A DNA stretch of 64,000 bases. Source: Planctomycetota bacterium (GTDB taxonomy: Bacteria > Planctomycetota > Phycisphaerae > UBA1845 > UTPLA1). Of the stretch, positions 2 to 31,335 are shown in pieces (the stretch's first letter is position 1; each line of letters opens with the position of its first letter). The DNA lies in NCBI GenBank assembly GCA_015654675.1, contig JAATGM010000051.1, forward strand, positions 1 through 64,000, written 5' to 3'. The notes below the pieces were generated by a model. That model had not been told where the DNA came from. It saw only the letters and a program-made list of their open reading frames with translations, and did no database searches. The position numbers and the translations under genes are program-made.

Positions 2-1249
2 ATTCCCGCCGCACGCGACGGCGACTGGGAGGCCTTCTTTGTCATTCAAAATCGTTTCAGCGGCTTTTCACCGGATGAACGAAGCGCGTTCATCGACGCA
101 GCGCTCGACCGACAGTCGTTCAATTGCCCGCATTGGGGAGCATCGCTCTGGGTCGATCTGCTCGACCAGCTTTGGCGCCACAACCAACTGACCGACCAGC
201 AGCAGGCGCAGTTCGAAGAGCAATTCGCCCGCCTGCAACTGGCGATCAGGCCGCGTGTCAAAGCCGGCGACCGAATCCCGATTGATATCATTCAGGAGTT
301 CCGAGCGCCCCGCTCATCGCCGTATTCTGACGAATTCACCATCGAGGGACTGACGCTCGATGGGACAAGAATGGACGTGCCGCGGTACTGGGTCACCGAA
401 CGAGCCCGTCCTCTTGTGAATTGCTTGGAGGACACGGTTTCTTACTTTCTCGATCCGCCGGGGGACTTTAAGACTGGCTCGCATTGTATCGCCATCGATG
501 TCGTCCACAGACGATCACGATGGACCGATGACCCACGCCCGAGTTCGCGAACCGTCTGGCAGCGCGCAGAGAAACTCGAAGGTCATTTCGAAACGCTGCC
601 ACCGGGCCAGGATGGATCGATCACGATCCTGACCGACGCTGCAACAGGAAATCGTATTCGCGATGCGATTTCGCCGACGGTAACCATCGCGACCGAACCC
701 GCTACGGGAAAAAAGTTGCTATGGGTGGACGCTTTCGCGACGACAAGCAAAATTCCCGTCGTGGGATTGACGTATGCGGTATATGTCATCCCGCCGAACT
801 CAACGGATCGGCTTCGCTTCGGCGACTTTCGAGCGATGGAAAATAGCGGCAGCGGGTCCAACTCGGGCGGCGACGACATCGCGAAACGCATTAACGTAGG
901 CGATTCTGTCACCGTCGTCCTGCGTTTTGATCCCGAACCGGCACGCATGACGACCGGGATGGCGTCCACCTGGCAAGGTGAACTCGAATTCGGTCCGATC
1001 GTCGTGACTCAGGATACGCGGCGTGCGACCCGAGCATACACGCCGGATCCGACTCAGGCTCGATATCGAGAGCGAACAGCGGCAGAACGCTATAGCCCAA
1101 CTCGAGTCAGCCCACCTCCACCTCTGCCCGACTTCGCCGGCCCGCTCATGCCACCCCAAATCAGAGACGATGCGAACCTGCGATCGATACTGAATTCGTT
1201 CGGCCCGACTCCGACATCGCAACCAACTCCAAACCGGCCAAACCCATGA
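2..1249 (+). CDS. Hypothetical protein, 5' end outside window
   Basis: An open frame runs without a stop from the first bases of the window to TGA at 1247-1249, giving at least 415 residues, so the start lies upstream. Internal ATG codons such as that at 371 are not likely starts, because acceptable coding sequence continues before them. I recognise no family. The middle is acidic to neutral and rich in beta-type residues. The last 70 or so residues are Pro/Thr/Arg-rich and probably disordered, with runs such as SPPPPLPDF. No membrane segment or cysteine cluster is visible in the part seen. Its stop codon overlaps the start of the zinc-ribbon gene in an ATGA arrangement, so the two are probably translationally coupled. 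Function unknown. Confidence 0.75.
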   Translation: MPAARDGDWEAFFVIQNRFSGFSPDERSAFIDAALDRQSFNCPHWGASLWVDLLDQLWRHNQLTDQQQAQFEEQFARLQLAIRPRVKAGDRIPIDIIQEFRAPRSSPYSDEFTIEGLTLDGTRMDVPRYWVTERARPLVNCLEDTVSYFLDPPGDFKTGSHCIAIDVVHRRSRWTDDPRPSSRTVWQRAEKLEGHFETLPPGQDGSITILTDAATGNRIRDAISPTVTIATEPATGKKLLWVDAFATTSKIPVVGLTYAVYVIPPNSTDRLRFGDFRAMENSGSGSNSGGDDIAKRINVGDSVTVVLRFDPEPARMTTGMASTWQGELEFGPIVVTQDTRRATRAYTPDPTQARYRERTAAERYSPTRVSPPPPLPDFAGPLMPPQIRDDANLRSILNSFGPTPTSQPTPNRPNP

Positions 1250-1614
1250 GTGACCCAGCCCGCCGAACGCTGCGCTGCCCGACCTGCGATCGCGACACGC
1301 CCTGTCGCGAGACTGAAAGTGACCACAACATCATCGCCGCCATCCTGAATCTACCGCTCAAGCTCCTGGTGCTGCCGATCGCAATCGAGCTTGGATTCGA
1401 CCTTGTGGAACGCGCCGAGTGGGTGTCGAAGGAATTTGCCTGCCTCGCGTGTGGCGAAGTCTTTCGCGAGTGCTCATCCGAGCCGAAGCACCCGCACGCC
1501 TGCCCCGCCTGCGATTACAACCTCCGAGGCAACAAATCCGGCCGCTGCCCCGAATGCGGCCGGACCATCGCTCCTTCGATGAAAAGCTGGATCGATTCGC
1601 ACGGGCCTCGCTAA
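1246..1614 (+). CDS. Zinc-ribbon protein, planctomycete CxYxLxG/CPECG type
   Basis: 122 residues with three cysteine pairs or groups: C11/C14/C20, C66/C69 and C86/C89 with C101/C104. The last four form a classic ribbon, CPACDYNLRG followed by CPECG, a signature I associate with many small planctomycete proteins. A hydrophobic stretch around residues 33-52 could be a membrane segment, with the ribbons on either side. The ATG overlaps the preceding stop (ATGA), indicating an operon with the upstream unknown gene. Ligand spacing supports zinc binding; a nucleic-acid or protein partner cannot be named. The coding call is firm because the overlap and the cysteine pattern agree. Confidence 0.8.
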   Translation: MSDPARRTLRCPTCDRDTPCRETESDHNIIAAILNLPLKLLVLPIAIELGFDLVERAEWVSKEFACLACGEVFRECSSEPKHPHACPACDYNLRGNKSGRCPECGRTIAPSMKSWIDSHGPR

Positions 1615-1636
1615 CACTAATAATTTTCAAGCCGCC

Positions 1637-1664
1637 TTGACTCGTCAGAACACAAACCTAACAT
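1637..1664 (+). promoter_or_regulatory. Sigma-70-like promoter heading element A
   Basis: TTGACT at 1637-1642, a 16-base spacer, then TAACAT at 1659-1664. It begins 23 bases after a gene stop, and no gene on the same strand follows within 2 kb. The same hexamers with the same spacing occur at 26367-26394, in front of a related intergenic element, which makes chance less likely. Confidence 0.5.
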
Positions 1665-1910
1665 CTGGGCGCGTCCAGCCATAGGAACGCCGGCATTACG
1701 GGCTGAGTCCGCGCGAATCCCGAGCTAAACGGGAGTCGCTCGTGTTCTGCCCGCATCGGCTGTGCTCTTTGTCAAACGAATAGACGTGCGACGATCAGTC
1801 GCGATCGAAGCGGAGTGCCCCGAATCTCAAGAATCTCACAAATCTCACTCCGCGTATCACTCGAAACGGCGATTTTCGGGCGGAAAACGCAATCGTCTCA
1901 CAAATCTCAC
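1665..1910 (+). repeat. Intergenic element, copy A (candidate small RNA)
   Basis: This is the body of the 375-base gap between the zinc-ribbon gene and the convergent PEP-CTERM gene. After the promoter-like head it holds a hairpin, TCCCG-7-CGGGA, at 1718-1734, followed by CGCTC. ATAGACGTGCGA lies near 1781, and three tandem 9-mers of the form AATCTCAxx occupy 1823-1849. A second hairpin CGATTTTC...GAAAACG lies at 1870-1889, and two more TCTCAC units at 1896-1910. The same order of blocks recurs at about 26.4-26.7 kb and, on the minus strand, at 60.96-60.54 kb. No convincing protein is encoded: the open frame across it changes composition and has no ribosome binding site. It could be a transcribed small RNA, a 3'-end regulatory element for the convergent gene, or a decayed mobile repeat. 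Confidence 0.55.
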
Positions 1911-1989
1911 CGCGCCTCACCCGGCCTCGGATCACAGGTCAGCGACTTGGATCGGAACGCCGCGCCGACGAGCCACCGCGGGAAAACCC

Positions 1990-2232
1990 TCAGCGATACA
2001 GCCGTGCCCGCCGTCGCGGATAGAACATGGCCGACCCGCCCAGGGCAATCATCCCCAGCGTGGCCGGCTCCGGGACGGTGGCGCTCGGCGCGTCCTCGAA
2101 TCGCAAAAAACGATCCTGCGCCGACTCCGCCGCGCCGCTGCCACGCGAACGATCCGGCGTCAGCGCATGGGCGCCGCACGCCGCAACGATCGCGATCAGC
2201 AGGGCGCACAAAATGTAATGTTGGCGTCTCAT
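1990..2232 (-). CDS. Very small PEP-CTERM protein
   Basis: 80 residues. I chose the ATG at 2232 rather than longer in-frame starts because a strong ribosome binding site (GGAGGAG) sits just upstream and a signal peptide begins at once: MRRQHYILCALLIAIVAACG. The C-terminus has the PEP-CTERM layout: PEP at residues 54-56, a short hydrophobic span (about 58-70) and a basic tail ending RRRARLYR. Such tails are cleaved by exosortase and sort proteins to the outer surface; no exosortase gene is in this window. Only about 30 residues remain between signal and sorting motif, so the mature product would be a short peptide. C19 inside the signal region could instead suggest a lipobox, but PEP-CTERM is the better fit. 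Confidence 0.8.
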   Translation of the reverse strand: MRRQHYILCALLIAIVAACGAHALTPDRSRGSGAAESAQDRFLRFEDAPSATVPEPATLGMIALGGSAMFYPRRRARLYR

Positions 2233-2524
2233 GATTCTCCTCCGAGGGCGAATCTTTCCCGTCCGGCTTCCCACCAGGGACGCCACCGACCACCGCGCGC
2301 GGAATCCCCGCAAGGCCGGGTCGGTCCGAACATTCGGACCGCGCGCACGTCAAATCGATGAATCCCCCAAAGGACGGGCTGCGTGGCGTGTGTCGCTTGG
2401 AGCAGCGCGACGCGCAGCGGCCGTCATCTCATATATGGAATTTAGAACCCCGAGAGTCAAATGAAAGGGCTATAAACGGTCGCAATTTGTGTAAGACCGC
2501 AACGGTTTTTATGCGACCAAGCGC

Positions 2525-2767
2525 TCAGTTGGCCCGAAAAATCCGCTGCGTCGTCCCGCCCGGCCCAACCGCCACCCGCAAACGCCCGGCACATCGCGGG
2601 CATCGGCCTTCATAGGCGTCGTCGGTGGGGGAGCGATAGATCCGGGCATAGACCCCGCAGCAATCGAAATGAACCCCGATCCATCGCCGCCGATCACATG
2701 CTTCGCCTTCAGGCGCGCCGCCGTCGAGATGGGAGATGTTGATGATGTAGTCGGGGTCTGCTGACAC
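2525..2767 (-). CDS. Small conserved CxxC protein, planctomycete type
   Basis: 80 residues from a GTG at 2767; an in-frame ATG at 2869 would give 114 residues but would overlap the end of the receiver gene by 47 bases and add a low-quality N-terminus. The conserved-looking core begins at DPDYIINISHLDGG and runs through WIGVHFDCCGVYARIYR and the ribbon GRCPRC to a C-terminal GPGGT. I recall similar short proteins as common in planctomycetes, without an assigned function. Pairs CC and CPRC suggest a metal site. It is the last gene of the leftward rpsP operon. The start codon is uncertain; the reading frame is not. Confidence 0.7.
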   Translation of the reverse strand: MSADPDYIINISHLDGGAPEGEACDRRRWIGVHFDCCGVYARIYRSPTDDAYEGRCPRCAGRLRVAVGPGGTTQRIFRAN

Positions 2768-2822
2768 GCTATGAGGTATATCGGCCGGAGAGGACGCGAA
2801 TTCGAAGCAGCAGTGGGGGGGG

Positions 2823-3293
2823 CTACTGCGCGGCCGACGGGGCCACAGTAAGCCGCTGACGCCGCGCATCCAACACCTTGCGCACCCGTGCGATCAGCTC
2901 GTGCCGGTTCACCGGCTTGCTGACGAAGTCGTCCGTGCCGACCTCGGTCCCGCGCTCGACGTCCGCAAACTCGTTCAGGGCCGTCACCATGATGATGCCG
3001 ATGTCCGCCGTCGCCGGATCGGCCCGCAGCTTCTTGCAGACTTCGTAGCCGCTCATTTTCGGCATCATGATGTCGAGCAGAATCAGCTCCGGCCGATGCT
3101 CGCGCACCGCATCCAGCGCCTCGGCCCCGCCCGTCGCGCGCAGCGTGCTGATCTCCGGAACGCCTTCGAGGTACGCCTCGAGCAGCTCCAGATTCTGGAT
3201 GTTGTCATCGACGATGAGTACTTTGCTCGGGTTGGATTCGTTGCTCGGCTGCACGGCCTGCTCCGTCACGCGTTCGCGGTCGCTGCACCCCAC
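2823..3293 (-). CDS. Stand-alone response-regulator receiver
   Basis: 156 residues, GTG start. It consists of one CheY-like receiver domain (about 24-145) with all key positions: acidic pair D29/D30, phospho-acceptor D74 in LILLDIMMP, T104 in VTALN and K126 in VSKPV. There is no DNA-binding or enzymatic output domain, only an N-terminal Gln/Asn/Ser-rich linker and a short basic tail. Such single-domain regulators act by protein contact or in a phosphorelay. No histidine kinase is encoded in the window, so its partner is elsewhere. It follows the ROK kinase by 54 bases in the leftward operon. Confidence 0.92.
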   Translation of the reverse strand: MGCSDRERVTEQAVQPSNESNPSKVLIVDDNIQNLELLEAYLEGVPEISTLRATGGAEALDAVREHRPELILLDIMMPKMSGYEVCKKLRADPATADIGIIMVTALNEFADVERGTEVGTDDFVSKPVNRHELIARVRKVLDARRQRLTVAPSAAQ

Positions 3294-25003: not shown

Positions 25004-26122
25004 CTAGCTGACCCGGGCGTTCCCGTCGCGTACTCGATTGCAACCCTTCGCCATCACAAGAATGGCGAAGAGAAGCCAGGTGCCCGGTTCGGGGATGTGC
25101 GCGACCCAAGCCTCAAACGAACCGGTTGAATTAAGACCACCGCCCACGATGGTCAAACCGTCCGCGGAGACACTCCCGGCCGCATTTAGCGTCCACCCCG
25201 TCAGGTTGAGACCACAGTCGTTCGAAAGTACATCGCGAAGAAGACGCATCCCGCCTGACTGGGTCCAAAGGAATGCTTCCCGTTGGCCCGACGCGAAAGT
25301 TCCAAAACCAACGACTGTGGAACCATCCCCGGACACGTCCAGCGGATACGTGTCGCTAAACCCTCCCGGACGACCTAATCCAATGGGGCCTGACGCCTCT
25401 GTCCATCGAAAGGCCTCGAAATGACCCTCCGAATCAACGCGAGAACCTATGACGACCGAGCCATCCGCGGAGATGCCTGCCTCCATGCCGAAATAGAAGC
25501 TTGTGGGCACTCCCAGGTCCACCATTCCAGTAGCCGCGGTCCAGCGAAACAAACTGGCGCCGGTGGAGCCGACAACCACGGAGCCGTCGGCTGATACGTC
25601 AGTTGCCTGGCTGAAATTGCCTCCGAGAAAACCCAGTCCCTGCATGCCCCCGGCCTCGGTCCATCTAAAGGCCTCCGACGCGCCGGACGAATTAGAACCT
25701 ACACCCACGACCACTGCGCCATTGGCTGATACCGCCGTGGCGTCGCTGTAACGCTCGTTGCTGGGATTCGGAAGGAACCCGAGGTTGACGGTGCCTTCGG
25801 TCGCGGTCCAGCGGAATGCCCTGTACGTATCACGCGACCCGACGACGGTTGAGCCGTCCCCCGAAACATCGCGTGCGATCGTGCCGAATGGAAGGGCGAT
25901 CATTCCTGTTGGTGACGTCCAACGGAAAGCTTGGTATCCCGCTCCGGAAGCACCGTATGAAGTTCCGGCCACCACCGAACCATCGGCCGATACGCCCGCC
26001 GGGCTGGATATGCTCCATCCGGGCAACACGCCGATACCCATGAACGAAGGCGGAGCGGCCTGCGCACCTAATTGCAGAAGAAACGTAACCATGCCAGTGA
26101 CGAATAACCTGGATCGCAACAT
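25004..26122 (-). CDS. HAF-repeat PEP-CTERM protein
   Basis: 372 residues from ATG at 26122, which has an excellent GGAGGAGAAAGG site; a longer frame to 26149 has none. Signal peptide at about 1-22 (LFVTGMVTFLLQLGAQA). The body is seven or eight copies of a 45-residue repeat whose centre reads AFRWT...GM..LG and whose start reads VSADGSVVVG, the so-called HAF or probable extracellular repeat, likely forming a beta-propeller. The C-terminus has PEP at IPEPGTW, a hydrophobic span and a basic-polar tail, so it is a likely exosortase substrate. Function unknown. Nothing in the neighbourhood is co-directional within 500 bases upstream. Confidence 0.88.
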   Translation of the reverse strand: MLRSRLFVTGMVTFLLQLGAQAAPPSFMGIGVLPGWSISSPAGVSADGSVVAGTSYGASGAGYQAFRWTSPTGMIALPFGTIARDVSGDGSTVVGSRDTYRAFRWTATEGTVNLGFLPNPSNERYSDATAVSANGAVVVGVGSNSSGASEAFRWTEAGGMQGLGFLGGNFSQATDVSADGSVVVGSTGASLFRWTAATGMVDLGVPTSFYFGMEAGISADGSVVIGSRVDSEGHFEAFRWTEASGPIGLGRPGGFSDTYPLDVSGDGSTVVGFGTFASGQREAFLWTQSGGMRLLRDVLSNDCGLNLTGWTLNAAGSVSADGLTIVGGGLNSTGSFEAWVAHIPEPGTWLLFAILVMAKGCNRVRDGNARVS

Positions 26123-26366
26123 CCTTTCTCCTCCGTGAATTCGCACCAAGCTTTTAAGCAGCGTATTGAGCGTGCCGCCGTCTGGTAATGATTCTACCGC
26201 GGCGCGGCAGTCAAATGGAAGTGAGAACGGAAGACCCTCGCCGGGGGCATTCGATCATTGAAACCCCGCGCTGCACCGGCGGCAAACCCCTCTGCGAATC
26301 TCGCCCCCTCTACATCGTGCCTCACGCCGCGCCTGTGGCTAACTGCTAATTGTTAAGCCCCGCGAC
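26123..26366. other. Spacer upstream of element B
   Basis: Non-coding 244 bases between the HAF gene start and the element B promoter. The last 25 bases resemble the sequence preceding the element A promoter: both contain GCTAAC...CTAAT...AAGCC. No other motif recognised. Confidence 0.4.
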
Positions 26367-26723: not shown

Positions 26724-27836
26724 CTACGAAAGCGTCAGCGAACGCCGCGCCGCCGAGACCGCCAGCCGTAACCCCATCGCCAGCGTTGGTCGCTCTAGCC
26801 ACATTTTGCGTCGCGCGAGCTGCGCCGCCAGCCGCCGGTCCGGCTCACGCCGAACGACCGCGCAAATGGCCCGCTCATAGCGATCGACGTCAGCGGGTGC
26901 TGTGGCCGAATGCGCAAGCCCGCGATCTTCAAGCAGCAACGGCGGGACATAGGTGCCAAAGATTCGCCGCAGTAATTCAACCGACGTATTCAGCCAGTCC
27001 TGTAATCCGTACTGCCGCGCACGAACTGAAACACGCTGCCAATAGGCGGAATTGCCGCCGGCCCGGCTCGCCAGCACGTGCAGGTCCAGCAACTGCCGCA
27101 ACCGCCCGACGATCGGCGACGAATACAGCAAATGCAGCATCACGTGCAGAAACTGATCCGCCGGCGAGAGCACATACACGCCCGCTCCCGGTGCGATCGG
27201 CCGGACATCCGACCAGAGTACGGACGACTCGATTCGCACCTTCGCCGACGGCGGCACCAGCGCATGGTGCAGCTCGATCGTGTCCCCGTGCTTTGGATGG
27301 CGGTATTCCGGCAGGTGATGCAGCCAGCGCCGTGCGTCGCGCTCGTGGCGGCGCGACACGCATATCTGATAACCCAGCCGGCGAAGCAATAGTTCGCCGC
27401 GTTCGACTTCCTGCGGCGGAACCAGCAGATCGATATCCACCATCGGCCGCGCCGCCGGATCGACATACGTCCATTTCGCCAGCGCCACGCCCTTCAGCAG
27501 CGCCACCGGAATGTCCGCGTCGGCAAACGCGTGTACCACTTGTTCCGTTCGCTTCAGCAAATGAGTCGTGTGCCCAGCCGTGGTGAAATATCGTTCGCGA
27601 CAACGCGGCAGCAGGTCATCGCAGCGTTCCTCCGCCCCAGCCAGCCCCCGGGCCGCCGCAAAAAAAGCCGCTCCGACCTCGGCCTCGACCGCGACATCGT
27701 CCATCTCGGCACTGAGCGGCCGCAGATCAGGGTCGTGCGCCGATCCGGTGCCCAGTGTCGCGAGAATCGCGCAAACGTCGTCCGCAAGCTTGCGTCGGCT
27801 GGCCAGCACTGATCGCGTCGAAAGGCTCTCGATCAT
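26724..27836 (-). CDS. NTP_transf_5-like nucleotidyltransferase
   Basis: 370 residues from ATG at 27836, with GGGGATGGAAG before it. The core resembles the large putative nucleotidyltransferase family (NTP_transf_5): IPVALLKGVALA at 109-120, then RPMVDIDLLVP with metal-binding D134 and D136, and a helical C-terminal half with DTIELHHALV. Such genes accompany PqqD and HPr-kinase-like genes in presumed peptide-modification loci. Possible reaction: transfer of an NMP to a protein or peptide; this is inference. It is the fourth gene of the overlapping operon, 13 bases after the kinase-like gene, and ends against element B. Confidence 0.82.
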   Translation of the reverse strand: MIESLSTRSVLASRRKLADDVCAILATLGTGSAHDPDLRPLSAEMDDVAVEAEVGAAFFAAARGLAGAEERCDDLLPRCRERYFTTAGHTTHLLKRTEQVVHAFADADIPVALLKGVALAKWTYVDPAARPMVDIDLLVPPQEVERGELLLRRLGYQICVSRRHERDARRWLHHLPEYRHPKHGDTIELHHALVPPSAKVRIESSVLWSDVRPIAPGAGVYVLSPADQFLHVMLHLLYSSPIVGRLRQLLDLHVLASRAGGNSAYWQRVSVRARQYGLQDWLNTSVELLRRIFGTYVPPLLLEDRGLAHSATAPADVDRYERAICAVVRREPDRRLAAQLARRKMWLERPTLAMGLRLAVSAARRSLTLS

Positions 27837-27849
27837 CTTCCATCCCCTT

Positions 27850-28725
27850 TCAGGCCACGCGGCGCACGGCCGCATTCTCCGTCGCGCGCTCGATCATTTC
27901 AATCGCGCCGCGAATCGTCCCGCTCTCCATCTCGAAGCAGCGTGTATCCCGAAGCAGGCGCGCCAGCAGCTCAACCCCGGTTCCGCCATGCTGGTGAAAA
28001 TTGAAGCTCAGCCGCCCGAGCCGCATGAGCGCATCGGCCGGCGAAATCTCGCGCAGCATACCCGGCGCTCCGGCACGATAGGTCGGAAAGACGACGGTTC
28101 GCAGCGGAACCGGACTGCTGACGGCTCCGGCACGGATGCGATCAACCGGCAGCACCGCCACGCGACCTTTGCCGCACGGCCGCCGGCTGAGCCGAATCCC
28201 GACGTGCGGCGACAACTTGTTCAACACCGCCGCCGACCCGGCCTTCACGTTCAAGGCCTTCGGAAACGGCTGAAGCAATCCGGTTGCCGGATCGATCAGT
28301 GCAAACTCGTCGCAAAGATACTGCCATCCACCCAGCGTCAGCGCCGCCGCAAGCGTCGTCTTGCCCGCTTCCGGCTTCCCGCCCAACAACACGCCGCCAG
28401 CGCCGCGACTGACGCACGCCGCATGCACCTGAAGGAATCGATGACAATCCAGCGCCACCGCCCAGTTACAGGTCCACTCCAGGTGCGGCAGGACATGCTC
28501 AAAATGGCGAATCACCGTCCGTCGCCGGCCATTGCCAGAGATTTCATAACGCCGATCGCGCCCGTCGCGCGACCCGCAACGAATCGCGTCGATCACCACA
28601 TCGACTTGCTCAGTTGTTGGCGTCGCAAATGCGCGGCAGCATTGCTCATAACCGGCCATCACGGCCGAACTGTTCGTCCGCAGCCGGATCGAAATCGCGC
28701 CGACCTGGAACGCGCTATCCAACAA
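27850..28725 (-). CDS. HPr-kinase-related P-loop protein (HprK-rel-A type)
   Basis: 291 residues from a TTG at 28725, supported by AGGAG 7 bases upstream and an 11-base overlap with the PqqD-like gene. The P-loop GKPEAGKT lies at 116-123, preceded by the beta strand HAACVSRGAGGVLLG as in HPr kinase/phosphorylase. CDEFALID (138-145) corresponds to the Walker B region, and FPKALNVK to a following conserved turn. The N-terminal 100 residues are family-specific. Classical HprK phosphorylates Ser46 of HPr; no HPr gene or ptsI is nearby, and the context here is a PqqD-like chaperone and a serine-containing peptide. My best reading is a kinase of the so-called HPr-rel-A system, acting on another substrate. 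Confidence 0.85.
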   Translation of the reverse strand: MLDSAFQVGAISIRLRTNSSAVMAGYEQCCRAFATPTTEQVDVVIDAIRCGSRDGRDRRYEISGNGRRRTVIRHFEHVLPHLEWTCNWAVALDCHRFLQVHAACVSRGAGGVLLGGKPEAGKTTLAAALTLGGWQYLCDEFALIDPATGLLQPFPKALNVKAGSAAVLNKLSPHVGIRLSRRPCGKGRVAVLPVDRIRAGAVSSPVPLRTVVFPTYRAGAPGMLREISPADALMRLGRLSFNFHQHGGTGVELLARLLRDTRCFEMESGTIRGAIEMIERATENAAVRRVA

Positions 28726-28972
28726 GCCCCAGCTCCTGAAACTGCTTCACCATCGCCAGGACGCATTCCCGCGCCGTCTGGTATTCAACCTCGAACATCT
28801 GATGCAGCCGCATCGCGGCCCGGTCCACGTCGGGCTCCTCGCGCCAGCATCTCCAGATCGCCGCAGCCGTCGCGTTCAGCCGATTGGTCGCGTTGCTGCG
28901 CGGGTCAAAAATGATCAATTCATCACCCAGCGCATGCACCGAGATGGTTGATGAGCTGGCCTCCAACTTCAC
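28715..28972 (-). CDS. PqqD-like peptide chaperone
   Basis: 85 residues, GTG start overlapping the preceding stop as GTGA. The PqqD fold pattern is present: DELIIFDPRSNATNRLNATA, AAIWRCW, then a helical half with a hydrophobic heptad and a closing QFQELGLVG. PqqD proteins bind leader peptides of ribosomally made precursors and deliver them to modifying enzymes. The gene sits between a small peptide gene and an HPr-kinase-like gene with overlaps on both sides, which strongly suggests that the encoded products act together. It is slightly shorter than PqqD itself, and no radical-SAM enzyme is adjacent. Confidence 0.87.
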   Translation of the reverse strand: MKLEASSSTISVHALGDELIIFDPRSNATNRLNATAAAIWRCWREEPDVDRAAMRLHQMFEVEYQTARECVLAMVKQFQELGLVG

Positions 28973-29166
28973 CCTCCAGCCGAGCCACCCGCCGACCCGG
29001 CCGTGCTCGTCTGAGCCAGCAGGGGGGTAGCGCGAAACGTCTCTATCAGCGGAATGACCCAGACCAGCCGCCGCGCCGAGCGCGAAAGGAACTCCCGCCG
29101 GTCCGTCGCCTCGGCAGTCGTATCATCTGCCGCCCGCGGGACTTCGCTGTGATTTGCCTCATCCAT
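28969..29166 (-). CDS. 65-residue twin-arginine-like peptide, possible substrate of the operon
   Basis: 65 residues from ATG at 29166; a TTG at 29187 would add 7. An acidic leader (1-22) precedes the twin-arginine-type motif DRREFLSRS (R23, R24), a hydrophobic run LVWVIPLIETF and a possible cleavage at LLA-QT (after residue 51). The remainder is only 14 residues, QTSTAGSAGGSAGG, rich in Gly, Ala, Ser and Thr. The stop overlaps the PqqD-like start, so stoichiometric co-expression is likely. I infer that the serines or threonines may be the target of the downstream kinase-like protein. Alternatively it may be a small Tat-exported subunit. Small size limits certainty. Confidence 0.72.
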   Translation of the reverse strand: MDEANHSEVPRAADDTTAEATDRREFLSRSARRLVWVIPLIETFRATPLLAQTSTAGSAGGSAGG

Positions 29167-29274: not shown

Positions 29275-31335
29275 TCAGGGAGCCATACTGGCGTTGGATT
29301 CGGCCAGTGGCTGCTTGAGATCGATTAGTTCAAACCCGCAGGCCAGCGGCAGCCGCCTGATAAGGCACCCAGGATCGGTCGCGAGGTGCTGTGCAATCGC
29401 CGGAGCCAGGTTGGAGTCGGTTTCCGGCGGCGCGGTCCCGGGAAATCCGCTGGCCGCCCAGGCATCGGCCCAGTTCCGAGTTGCTCCACGCACAAGGTAG
29501 CGCGCCCCCGCGCCGCCCGACGGTTTGCTTCGGTAGTGCCCGAGCCGCGGCCAGAACGGTTGGAACTCGCTCACCTTACATCGTTGCTCGGTCAGATACG
29601 AAAGTATGTGTGCGTCAAACAGCTCGGCCTGTGCCGAAGTGATCCCTTCGCGCCGTAGCTCGTTTGCCAGCGGCCGCAGTGGGTGCTCCGCTCCGAGCCG
29701 TTGCCAGAGCCCGAACTGGCCAATCGACCATCCAAACAATATCGTGACAAATGCCGCTCGCGCCGCCACGACGTGCGAACTCGGCTCGCCATCACCCTTC
29801 CCGACCGCGGCGCATGCAATCAGCCCCGGCAAAAAGGCCCACATCGGAATCAGATAACGGATGGTATTGAAATCATGCGCGCAGCCGCTCATCAGATAGA
29901 GCGCTGCCAATCCACACATGCCCGACACTAGCAGCGTCACCGGCGACCCGCGCGACGGCTCGAGCCGCAGCCAACTCGCCAGCCCGCGGCGATTCTGTAG
30001 CACCAGGGCAGCGGCCAGCGTCACCAGCCCGCCTGCCACCAACCAGTTCGCGAATTGCATCAACCCAGCGGTCATTTCATTTATTGGCCGGAGAACATCC
30101 TCCCGGCCAATGCAGATCAACTGCAGGAATCGATCGGAACTCGCCCCTAGCAGCAGCGGCAAGCCATTCGCGAGAAACCCGGCCGTCTCGCCGATTTTCC
30201 AAAGCGGCCGAAACCCAAGCGGAAGGGCCGGCTCGATAGCGTGGGTTCCCAGCGCGCCGCCCGCCACGTAATAAATGATCGGGATGACCCCAACGATGAT
30301 TCCAAACAGCAGCGGCCCATTGGTGCCCAGTGCCCGCCGCGCAATCGCGAGCGCGTTCCATCGCAGCTGTGCATAGCTCATCGCTGCACCGGCCGCCAAT
30401 CCCTGAACGGCGATGGCCAACGGCTTTGGTAGCAGCCCGAGCAAGACCTGACTGACGACCTTTCCGTTCTCCACATGCACGGTCTGCACAAGATTCAATG
30501 CCAGCGCCGCTCCCAGCACAAAAATCGGAAGGGCGAGTGTCCCCAATTGTTGGAGTGCGCGATCGACCGAAGCTGAACTCCGCAACGTCCTCATCGGCCC
30601 CGCCAGCAGGGCGTGCAAGGCGATCGGCGCGACAAAAATCACAATGCTGGGATTGATCCAGAGCCCCGACCCGATCAGTACGCCGAACAGAAATCGCTGC
30701 ATCGCAGTCGGCCCGGCGACAGTTCGAATCCACCACTCGCTATAAGCCCATAACAGCAGTGTTCCCCACAGCAGAATCTCGATATATCCGCCGCGCGCCG
30801 AAATGCTCCACTGAGCGAACATCGGCGCACCGGCCAGCAGAACCAGCGCGGCCGCAAGACCGCATCCCCGTCCGCGCCACCGCGTCAGCATGAGGTATTG
30901 CGCGCTCACCATCGCGGCAAAAAACATGGCCGGCGCAAGCCGCAGCGCGGTGATGGGGCGGTCGACGAATCCGAGCAGACCCGCCACCACATACGCCTCA
31001 AGCGCCCCCATGTAACGTTGGCCGTAGAAAAACACCGGCAGCGACCGCCCGGCCGCGATGTCCTGCGCCATGATGCCGACAATGGCCTCGTCGGAGTGCA
31101 GCAGCGTCTCGCCCCGCTCAATCAGCGGCCACCGCACTAGAATCGCGGCCGTGAAAAGCGCAGCACAAACAACCACGTCCCAGCGCGTGAGCCGCGTCCA
31201 CACCCAAGCCGCCGGCTTCGTGGCCGGCATTTCGCCCCTCGGGCGCAGCATCCGCTCAAACTCGCCGTGCGACGGTGCACCGGCGATCTTTTCCGGAGTC
31301 TTGGGCAACGACTCAGCCAAAACGCGCATGCGCAT
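29275..31335 (-). CDS. Polytopic GT39/ArnT-like membrane glycosyltransferase
   Basis: 686 residues with about 11-12 hydrophobic helices and a soluble C-terminal part of about 150 residues. The first loop after helix 1 holds HSDEAIVGIMAQDIAAG and FYGQRYMGALEAY, matching the acidic loop of lipid-linked-sugar transferases of the GT-C class, where D/E residues are catalytic. Starts with a tandem ATG (residues 1 and 3) behind GGGAGAGG. It is 108 bases upstream of the peptide/PqqD operon on the same strand and could belong to that transcript. Substrate unknown; the sugar donor is presumably a polyprenyl-phosphate sugar. Confidence 0.82.
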   Translation of the reverse strand: MRMRVLAESLPKTPEKIAGAPSHGEFERMLRPRGEMPATKPAAWVWTRLTRWDVVVCAALFTAAILVRWPLIERGETLLHSDEAIVGIMAQDIAAGRSLPVFFYGQRYMGALEAYVVAGLLGFVDRPITALRLAPAMFFAAMVSAQYLMLTRWRGRGCGLAAALVLLAGAPMFAQWSISARGGYIEILLWGTLLLWAYSEWWIRTVAGPTAMQRFLFGVLIGSGLWINPSIVIFVAPIALHALLAGPMRTLRSSASVDRALQQLGTLALPIFVLGAALALNLVQTVHVENGKVVSQVLLGLLPKPLAIAVQGLAAGAAMSYAQLRWNALAIARRALGTNGPLLFGIIVGVIPIIYYVAGGALGTHAIEPALPLGFRPLWKIGETAGFLANGLPLLLGASSDRFLQLICIGREDVLRPINEMTAGLMQFANWLVAGGLVTLAAALVLQNRRGLASWLRLEPSRGSPVTLLVSGMCGLAALYLMSGCAHDFNTIRYLIPMWAFLPGLIACAAVGKGDGEPSSHVVAARAAFVTILFGWSIGQFGLWQRLGAEHPLRPLANELRREGITSAQAELFDAHILSYLTEQRCKVSEFQPFWPRLGHYRSKPSGGAGARYLVRGATRNWADAWAASGFPGTAPPETDSNLAPAIAQHLATDPGCLIRRLPLACGFELIDLKQPLAESNASMAP

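Follow-up and report, generated by a model that had tools for sequence, protein, structure and literature searches.

The window, by which we mean the whole 64,000-nucleotide stretch of planctomycete DNA analyzed here, carries on its minus strand (29166 to 26724) a genuine four-gene operon encoding a 65-residue peptide, a PqqD protein, an HprK-like kinase and a nucleotidyltransferase. This operon probably encodes a RiPP pathway resembling that of the linear polyphosphorylated peptides (LPPs). The leader of the window peptide would double as a Tat-type signal, and PqqD would present the peptide so that a serine can be phosphorylated and a second change made before the product is exported and cleaved. 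The genes, the peptide family, its motifs and their spacing, the gene fusions, the co-occurrence across genomes and the intact active sites can all be read directly, and they point to this peptide family as a candidate client of the so-called HPr-rel-A system, a set of genes with a family name but no client assigned to it.

Operon layout and gene assignments

The features discussed below are as follows.

29275..31335, minus strand: multi-TM membrane protein with about 9 predicted TM stretches, ending 108 bases ahead of the peptide ATG
28969..29166, minus strand: precursor/client peptide gene, 65 aa, MDEANHSEVPRAADDTTAEATDRREFLSRSARRLVWVIPLIETFRATPLLAQTSTAGSAGGSAGG, ATG at 29166 and TGA ending at 28969
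29086..29100, minus strand: twin-arginine motif R23-R24-E-F-L of the leader; RR also in relatives
29044..29061, minus strand: RRE-binding-like motif W36-V-I-P39-L-I41, of the form [Y/W]xxPx[L/V/I] (motif definition from PMC13381572)
28972..29013, minus strand: predicted core Q52-G65, QTSTAGSAGGSAGG, after the AxA-type site PLLA51; cleavage inferred
28715..28972, minus strand: pqqD, PqqD-type RiPP recognition element (RRE), 85 aa, GTG start; PF05402, TIGR04353
27850..28725, minus strand: HprK-like P-loop kinase, 291 aa, TTG start with AGGAG upstream
28354..28380, minus strand: Walker A loop of the kinase, with G116, K117 and T119 invariant in 70 kinases
26724..27836, minus strand: NTP_transf_5 nucleotidyltransferase-like gene, ATG at 27836; PF14907

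The first-pass annotation had described four tightly packed genes, and every element of that description was confirmed, including the TTG start and AGGAG of the kinase gene. Inspection of the junction sequences indeed showed that the GTG start of pqqD overlaps the peptide stop by 4 bases (GTGA), that the kinase gene and pqqD overlap by 11 bases, and that the nucleotidyltransferase ATG lies 13 bases past the kinase stop, with a longer in-frame ATG at 27875, overlapping the kinase gene, as an alternative start. The multi-TM protein, which is without a Pfam match, is a possible operon member in the window's clade only, as a homologue with 45% identity occupies the same position in one relative (G011/L061) and was not found in the other kinase loci examined. 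Just downstream of the operon, on the same strand, lies a HAF-repeat protein (25004-26149) with a weak PEP-CTERM match.

Profile searches of the three larger proteins returned the families expected from the first-pass annotation (PF05402/TIGR04353, TIGR04352 and PF14907), the kinase below its cut-off, and the resemblance to HPr-rel-A noted there holds in part: PqqD scores above its cut-off and the pqqD, kinase and nucleotidyltransferase genes are adjacent, but the kinase falls short. With E=2e-50 and 171.3 bits against TIGR04352, it does not reach the equivalog cut-off of 200, which just 4 of 200 relatives pass, and judging from these scores it is a sister of HprK-rel-A, not a strict member. 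HprK-rel-A-like kinases were found in 77 of the 200 relatives, those with names being mostly Phycisphaerae (Planctomycetota). Profile searches with the kinase lead to HprK, and fold searches to the HprK/PEPCK fold, where the fold itself, the Walker A loop, the His and the Asp are in the same places; differences from HPr kinase/phosphorylase are that the window family has DE where HprK has DD, and that HPr is not the substrate proposed here. All 70 kinases (69 relatives plus the window) share H96, G116, K117, T119, D134, E135 and K156 without exception, and nucleotide binding is therefore kept; the family-wide loss that the first-pass annotation had named as a finding against its reading was not seen.

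The nucleotidyltransferase scores 144.8 bits against PF14907 (NTP_transf_5). No variation was seen in K, G, R and DxD across 56 homologues, and the window protein departs at several other conserved columns. Both enzymes of the operon keep their catalytic residues. Nucleotidylation of the peptide, as first suggested, becomes one option among others, because in the nearest systems characterized so far the PsmN nucleotidyltransferase has been linked to hexose addition on phospho-Ser (PMC9266682) and deletion of LppN had no effect (PMC13381572).

The PqqD protein matches PF05402 with 42.1 bits and TIGR04353 with 36.1 bits (cut-off 35), and resembles an RRE of the lasso/LPP type. When compared to the PDB, the profile of its family matched TfuB1 and TbiB1, two RREs of lasso pathways, followed by LppB (9x8z) and PbaB1 (9x90), the last two solved with their leaders (PMC13381572). 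In the LppB crystal, a segment of the LppA leader pairs with the RRE, and N33 fixes the kink of the leader (PMC13381572); the Asn matching N33 is kept in 74 of 79 sequences and is found in the window protein. For a naturally occurring fusion of PqqD and peptide (L148), AlphaFold predicts a confident RRE (pLDDT >90) and, with a confidence of about 70, a short beta strand at leader positions -11 to -7, the counterpart of the LppA stretch that pairs with LppB; the best Foldseek matches of this model were TbiB1 and TfuB1. Leader position -16 also appeared linked to RRE residue 70, as Y is accompanied by D in 29 of 42 cases and F in 0 of 16 (Fisher 2e-6), the window combining Trp at -16 with Cys at residue 70. 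We regard this link as just a hint, because it reflects two to three independent changes on the tree and is non-significant once kinship is considered.

The leader family and its two core types

A leader profile built from the relatives, with the window left out, matched the window peptide at E=3.4e-11 among 11,107 frames, and the small ORF is for this reason not a chance ORF. It is also the sole match of that profile in the whole 4.9 Mb genome. A generic Tat protein was considered and rejected, given that this one match genome-wide lies at the operon locus. Near the kinase, a leader-type peptide was found in 56 of the 70 loci, so that the small gene is not, as the first-pass annotation had allowed for, missing from most related loci. 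Among the other 14, 5 loci are cut off by the end of the contig no more than about 1.1 kb upstream, L089 encodes a divergent RR peptide recognizable by eye, and 6 have the peptide elsewhere in the genome (G110, G090, G094, G098, G096); in G024 and G106 the kinase locus is present and no leader peptide was found in either genome.

The 58 related peptides follow a common pattern, namely RR, 13-14 residues, [Y/F/W]xxPx[V/I/L] and then A. The RR is present in 57 of the 58 once RGRR cases are read correctly, and an aromatic residue stands at P-3 in 51, the search pattern having demanded Pro and a hydrophobic residue two positions on, and neither the aromatic residue nor the A. From P39 to A51 the window peptide counts 13 residues, as do 56 of 58 relatives, in which A is exactly the twelfth residue after Pro if a PP ambiguity is allowed in five. 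In a 23-row leader alignment the sole invariant columns are RR, Pro and the last A of AxA. Leaders from distant phyla mostly have no aromatic residue at P-3, and their spacing is 12-14. At the predicted site, which in the window reads LLA and is of the AxA type, the peptide would be split into the leader RREFLSRSARRLVWVIPLIETFRATPLLA and the core QTSTAGSAGGSAGG, and Ser54 would become core position 3 if cleavage occurs after A51.

Of 120 genomes, 61 have both the leader and a strong kinase (>100 bits) and 54 have neither, whereas 3 have just the kinase and 2 just the leader, for a Fisher p of about 4e-28 that is uncorrected for kinship and inflated by relatedness (55 was entered for the genomes with neither instead of 54, with no effect on the outcome). 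Fusions join the peptide to the C-terminus of the kinase in five loci (L032, L043, L051, L063, L067), to PqqD in two (L072, L091) and to an NTase-SET protein in one (L062). In Acidobacteriota, Chloroflexota, Myxococcota and Aquisphaera, where reach beyond the window's order comes from a few inspected loci and is not a count, the PqqD C-terminus is an RR leader with a mostly Cys-rich tail. The RRE-binding motif, the gene pairs, the fusions to three partners and the co-occurrence all support the first-pass view of the peptide as a putative precursor, or client, bound by PqqD and tied to the kinase.

Cores fall into two kinds, 28 being short (5-14 residues) and 30 long, and that of the window is short and Ser-rich. 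Most long cores are rich in Cys, and 25 of the 30 fit the C-C-CC-C-C knottin pattern; weak knottin matches (E 0.16-0.74) also came from the PDB search. A VKOR-DsbA fusion protein is encoded in 22 of 29 Cys-core loci vs 0 of 37 short-core loci, 16 of the latter being covered by less than 8 kb of sequence, and it adjoins kinase loci with knottin-like cores in L046, L047, L057, L079-L082, L144 and L177. A neighbor survey of the short-core loci returned no partner fitting the pathway.

Comparison with LPP, HPr-rel-A and lasso systems

The enzyme set is already known from lasso and LPP clusters. In the LPP precursors of Bacilli, the leader has Y-16 and P-13, cleavage follows position -1, and an HprK-like kinase phosphorylates Ser3 of the core; the clusters (lppAKBSDN) were reported as restricted to Bacillota, and include LppS, a dedicated signal peptidase of the archaeal type, as well as an exporter resembling MsbA (PMC13381572). 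Our family shares the leader motif (YxxPxV in LPP, [Y/W]xxPx[VLI] here; W at -16 and P at -13 in the window), placed 13 residues before a cleavage site that is predicted in our case, a Ser at core position 3, a discrete PqqD-type RRE, an HprK-like kinase and an NTP transferase, without a macrolactam cyclase in the cluster. It differs, however, in that the window operon has an RR signal with an AxA site and belongs to Planctomycetota instead of Bacillota. No LppS/SipW-like signal peptidase is among the recurrent neighbor families, signal peptidase I being encoded elsewhere in the genome; no MsbA-like exporter or ABC transporter is among those families or was recognized among the window's neighbors, and the loci have no recurrent neighbor that would serve as a leader-specific peptidase or exporter comparable to LppS/LppD.

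With the HPr-rel-A system (NCBIfam TIGR04352/TIGR04353) the operon shares the order small ORF, PqqD, kinase, nucleotidyltransferase. The few canonical loci inspected, from Vibrio and Sphingomonas plasmids and the planctomycetes L089, L214 and L215, also start with an RR...AxA protein, with a spacing of 12-13 where the Pro is kept (Sphingomonas is without it), although that first gene can encode 160-270 aa and the window kinase reaches 171 vs 200 bits. The paeninodin and pseudomycoidin systems (PadeK, PsmK, PsmN) similarly combine an RRE that binds a WxxP leader with an HprK-like kinase and an NTase, whereas the window leader is Tat-like and no lasso protease/cyclase pair is nearby. A lasso peptide was in fact rejected for lack of that pair near the operon, the one match to the lasso B2 protease PF13471 being weak (26.7 bits) and on another contig. 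In a literature search of partial coverage we found no study of an HPr-rel-A product, nor any description of an HPr-rel-A-type client, of the Tat-like leader, of presence outside Bacillota, of the fusions or of the knottin branch.

Proposed pathway and alternative explanations

The steps of binding, phosphorylation, second modification, export and cleavage are inferred, and could proceed as follows. The 65-residue peptide would be the client, and PqqD, as RRE, would bind W36xxP39xI midway in the Tat-type signal and hold the C-terminal core beside the kinase. The HprK-like kinase would then phosphorylate a Ser that closely follows the cleavage site, with Ser54 as the first candidate, and the NTP_transf_5 protein might alter the phospho-Ser with a hexose or a nucleotide. 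Upon release by PqqD, the RR signal would direct the modified peptide to Tat, and signal peptidase would cleave after PLLA51, so that a short modified peptide rich in Ser and Gly ends up outside the cytoplasm.

Where the kinase acts could be questioned, as PadeK modifies a C-terminal Ser (PMC9266682), and 19 of the 28 short cores end in Ser. We nonetheless find it rather doubtful that a C-terminal Ser is the target in this family as in paeninodin, as just 2 of 30 long cores end in Ser and that of the window does not, whereas a Ser occurs within the first six residues of all 28 short and 28 of 30 long cores. Whether the signal is used for export is a related issue. TatC and signal peptidase I are present in the window genome, and the window peptide has a twin-arginine motif, a hydrophobic stretch and an AxA-type site; it matched no Tat signal profile, and among 23 leaders TIGR01409 was matched weakly by 5 and PF10518 by 1 (best value 0.0083). 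The h-region is moderately hydrophobic (mean 1.23 over 15 residues), and in the fusions RR is kept even 100-580 residues into the protein, so that Tat use there needs an N-in hairpin. These observations would suit a client of PqqD and the kinase in which the RR-hydrophobic-AxA element is a membrane anchor or an enzyme-docking element, and the product stays in or at the inner membrane. We deem this unlikely, however, as RR, the AxA alanine and the Pro are the sole invariant columns, relatives with Cys cores have VKOR-DsbA, a type of enzyme acting outside the cytoplasm, and canonical proteobacterial loci also open with an RR...AxA protein.

The 14 kinase loci without a nearby leader match would also agree with an ordinary small Tat-exported protein that lies by accident next to a PqqD-kinase-NTase trio with another substrate. 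Fusions to all three partners, a near-perfect co-occurrence, an RRE motif at fixed spacing and a single leader match in the genome, at this very locus, make such a coincidence highly improbable. Equally slim are the chances that the window operon is a degenerate, non-functional copy: it is an outlier of its family, with Trp replacing Tyr at -16, Cys in place of D70 and divergent NTase columns, but its four frames are intact, tight overlaps and catalytic residues are kept, and paeninodin leaders normally have WxxP.

If the peptide is indeed a modified and exported client, these loci could represent a wide class of RiPPs whose RREs bind within Tat signal peptides and, in the manner of Tat proofreading chaperones, couple (poly)phosphorylation or glycosylation of core Ser to export, with products ranging from 5-residue Ser peptides to disulfide-knotted, knottin-like ones in Planctomycetota, Acidobacteriota, Myxococcota, Chloroflexota and Pseudomonadota; we propose this wider view tentatively. 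Our results suggest that one sequence can serve as both Tat-type signal and RiPP leader, offer a rule at the level of single residues for the way in which PqqD should hold its client, tie an HPr-rel-A-type system to LPPs, previously reported from Bacillota only, and expose a bacterial family of knottin-like peptides with a VKOR-DsbA enzyme of its own.

Some loci showed variations in the number and arrangement of the peptide genes. Five tandem copies of the leader family lie away from the kinase locus in one genome (G096:C1:2913480-2915886), and in L201 and L203 two tandem RR peptides are found upstream of PqqD, one copy in L201 ending in DWWQLWRKL and at least one in L203 in DWWMFWRKL. In L062, a single ORF (1036-2967, minus strand) joins NTP_transf_5, SET and an RR leader followed by a Cys-rich core, and a SET-like ORF lies near the peptide in L054. 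A second leader match in L033, at about -3665 from the kinase, is decayed, with RG for RR and the AxA lost, and is apparently a relic.
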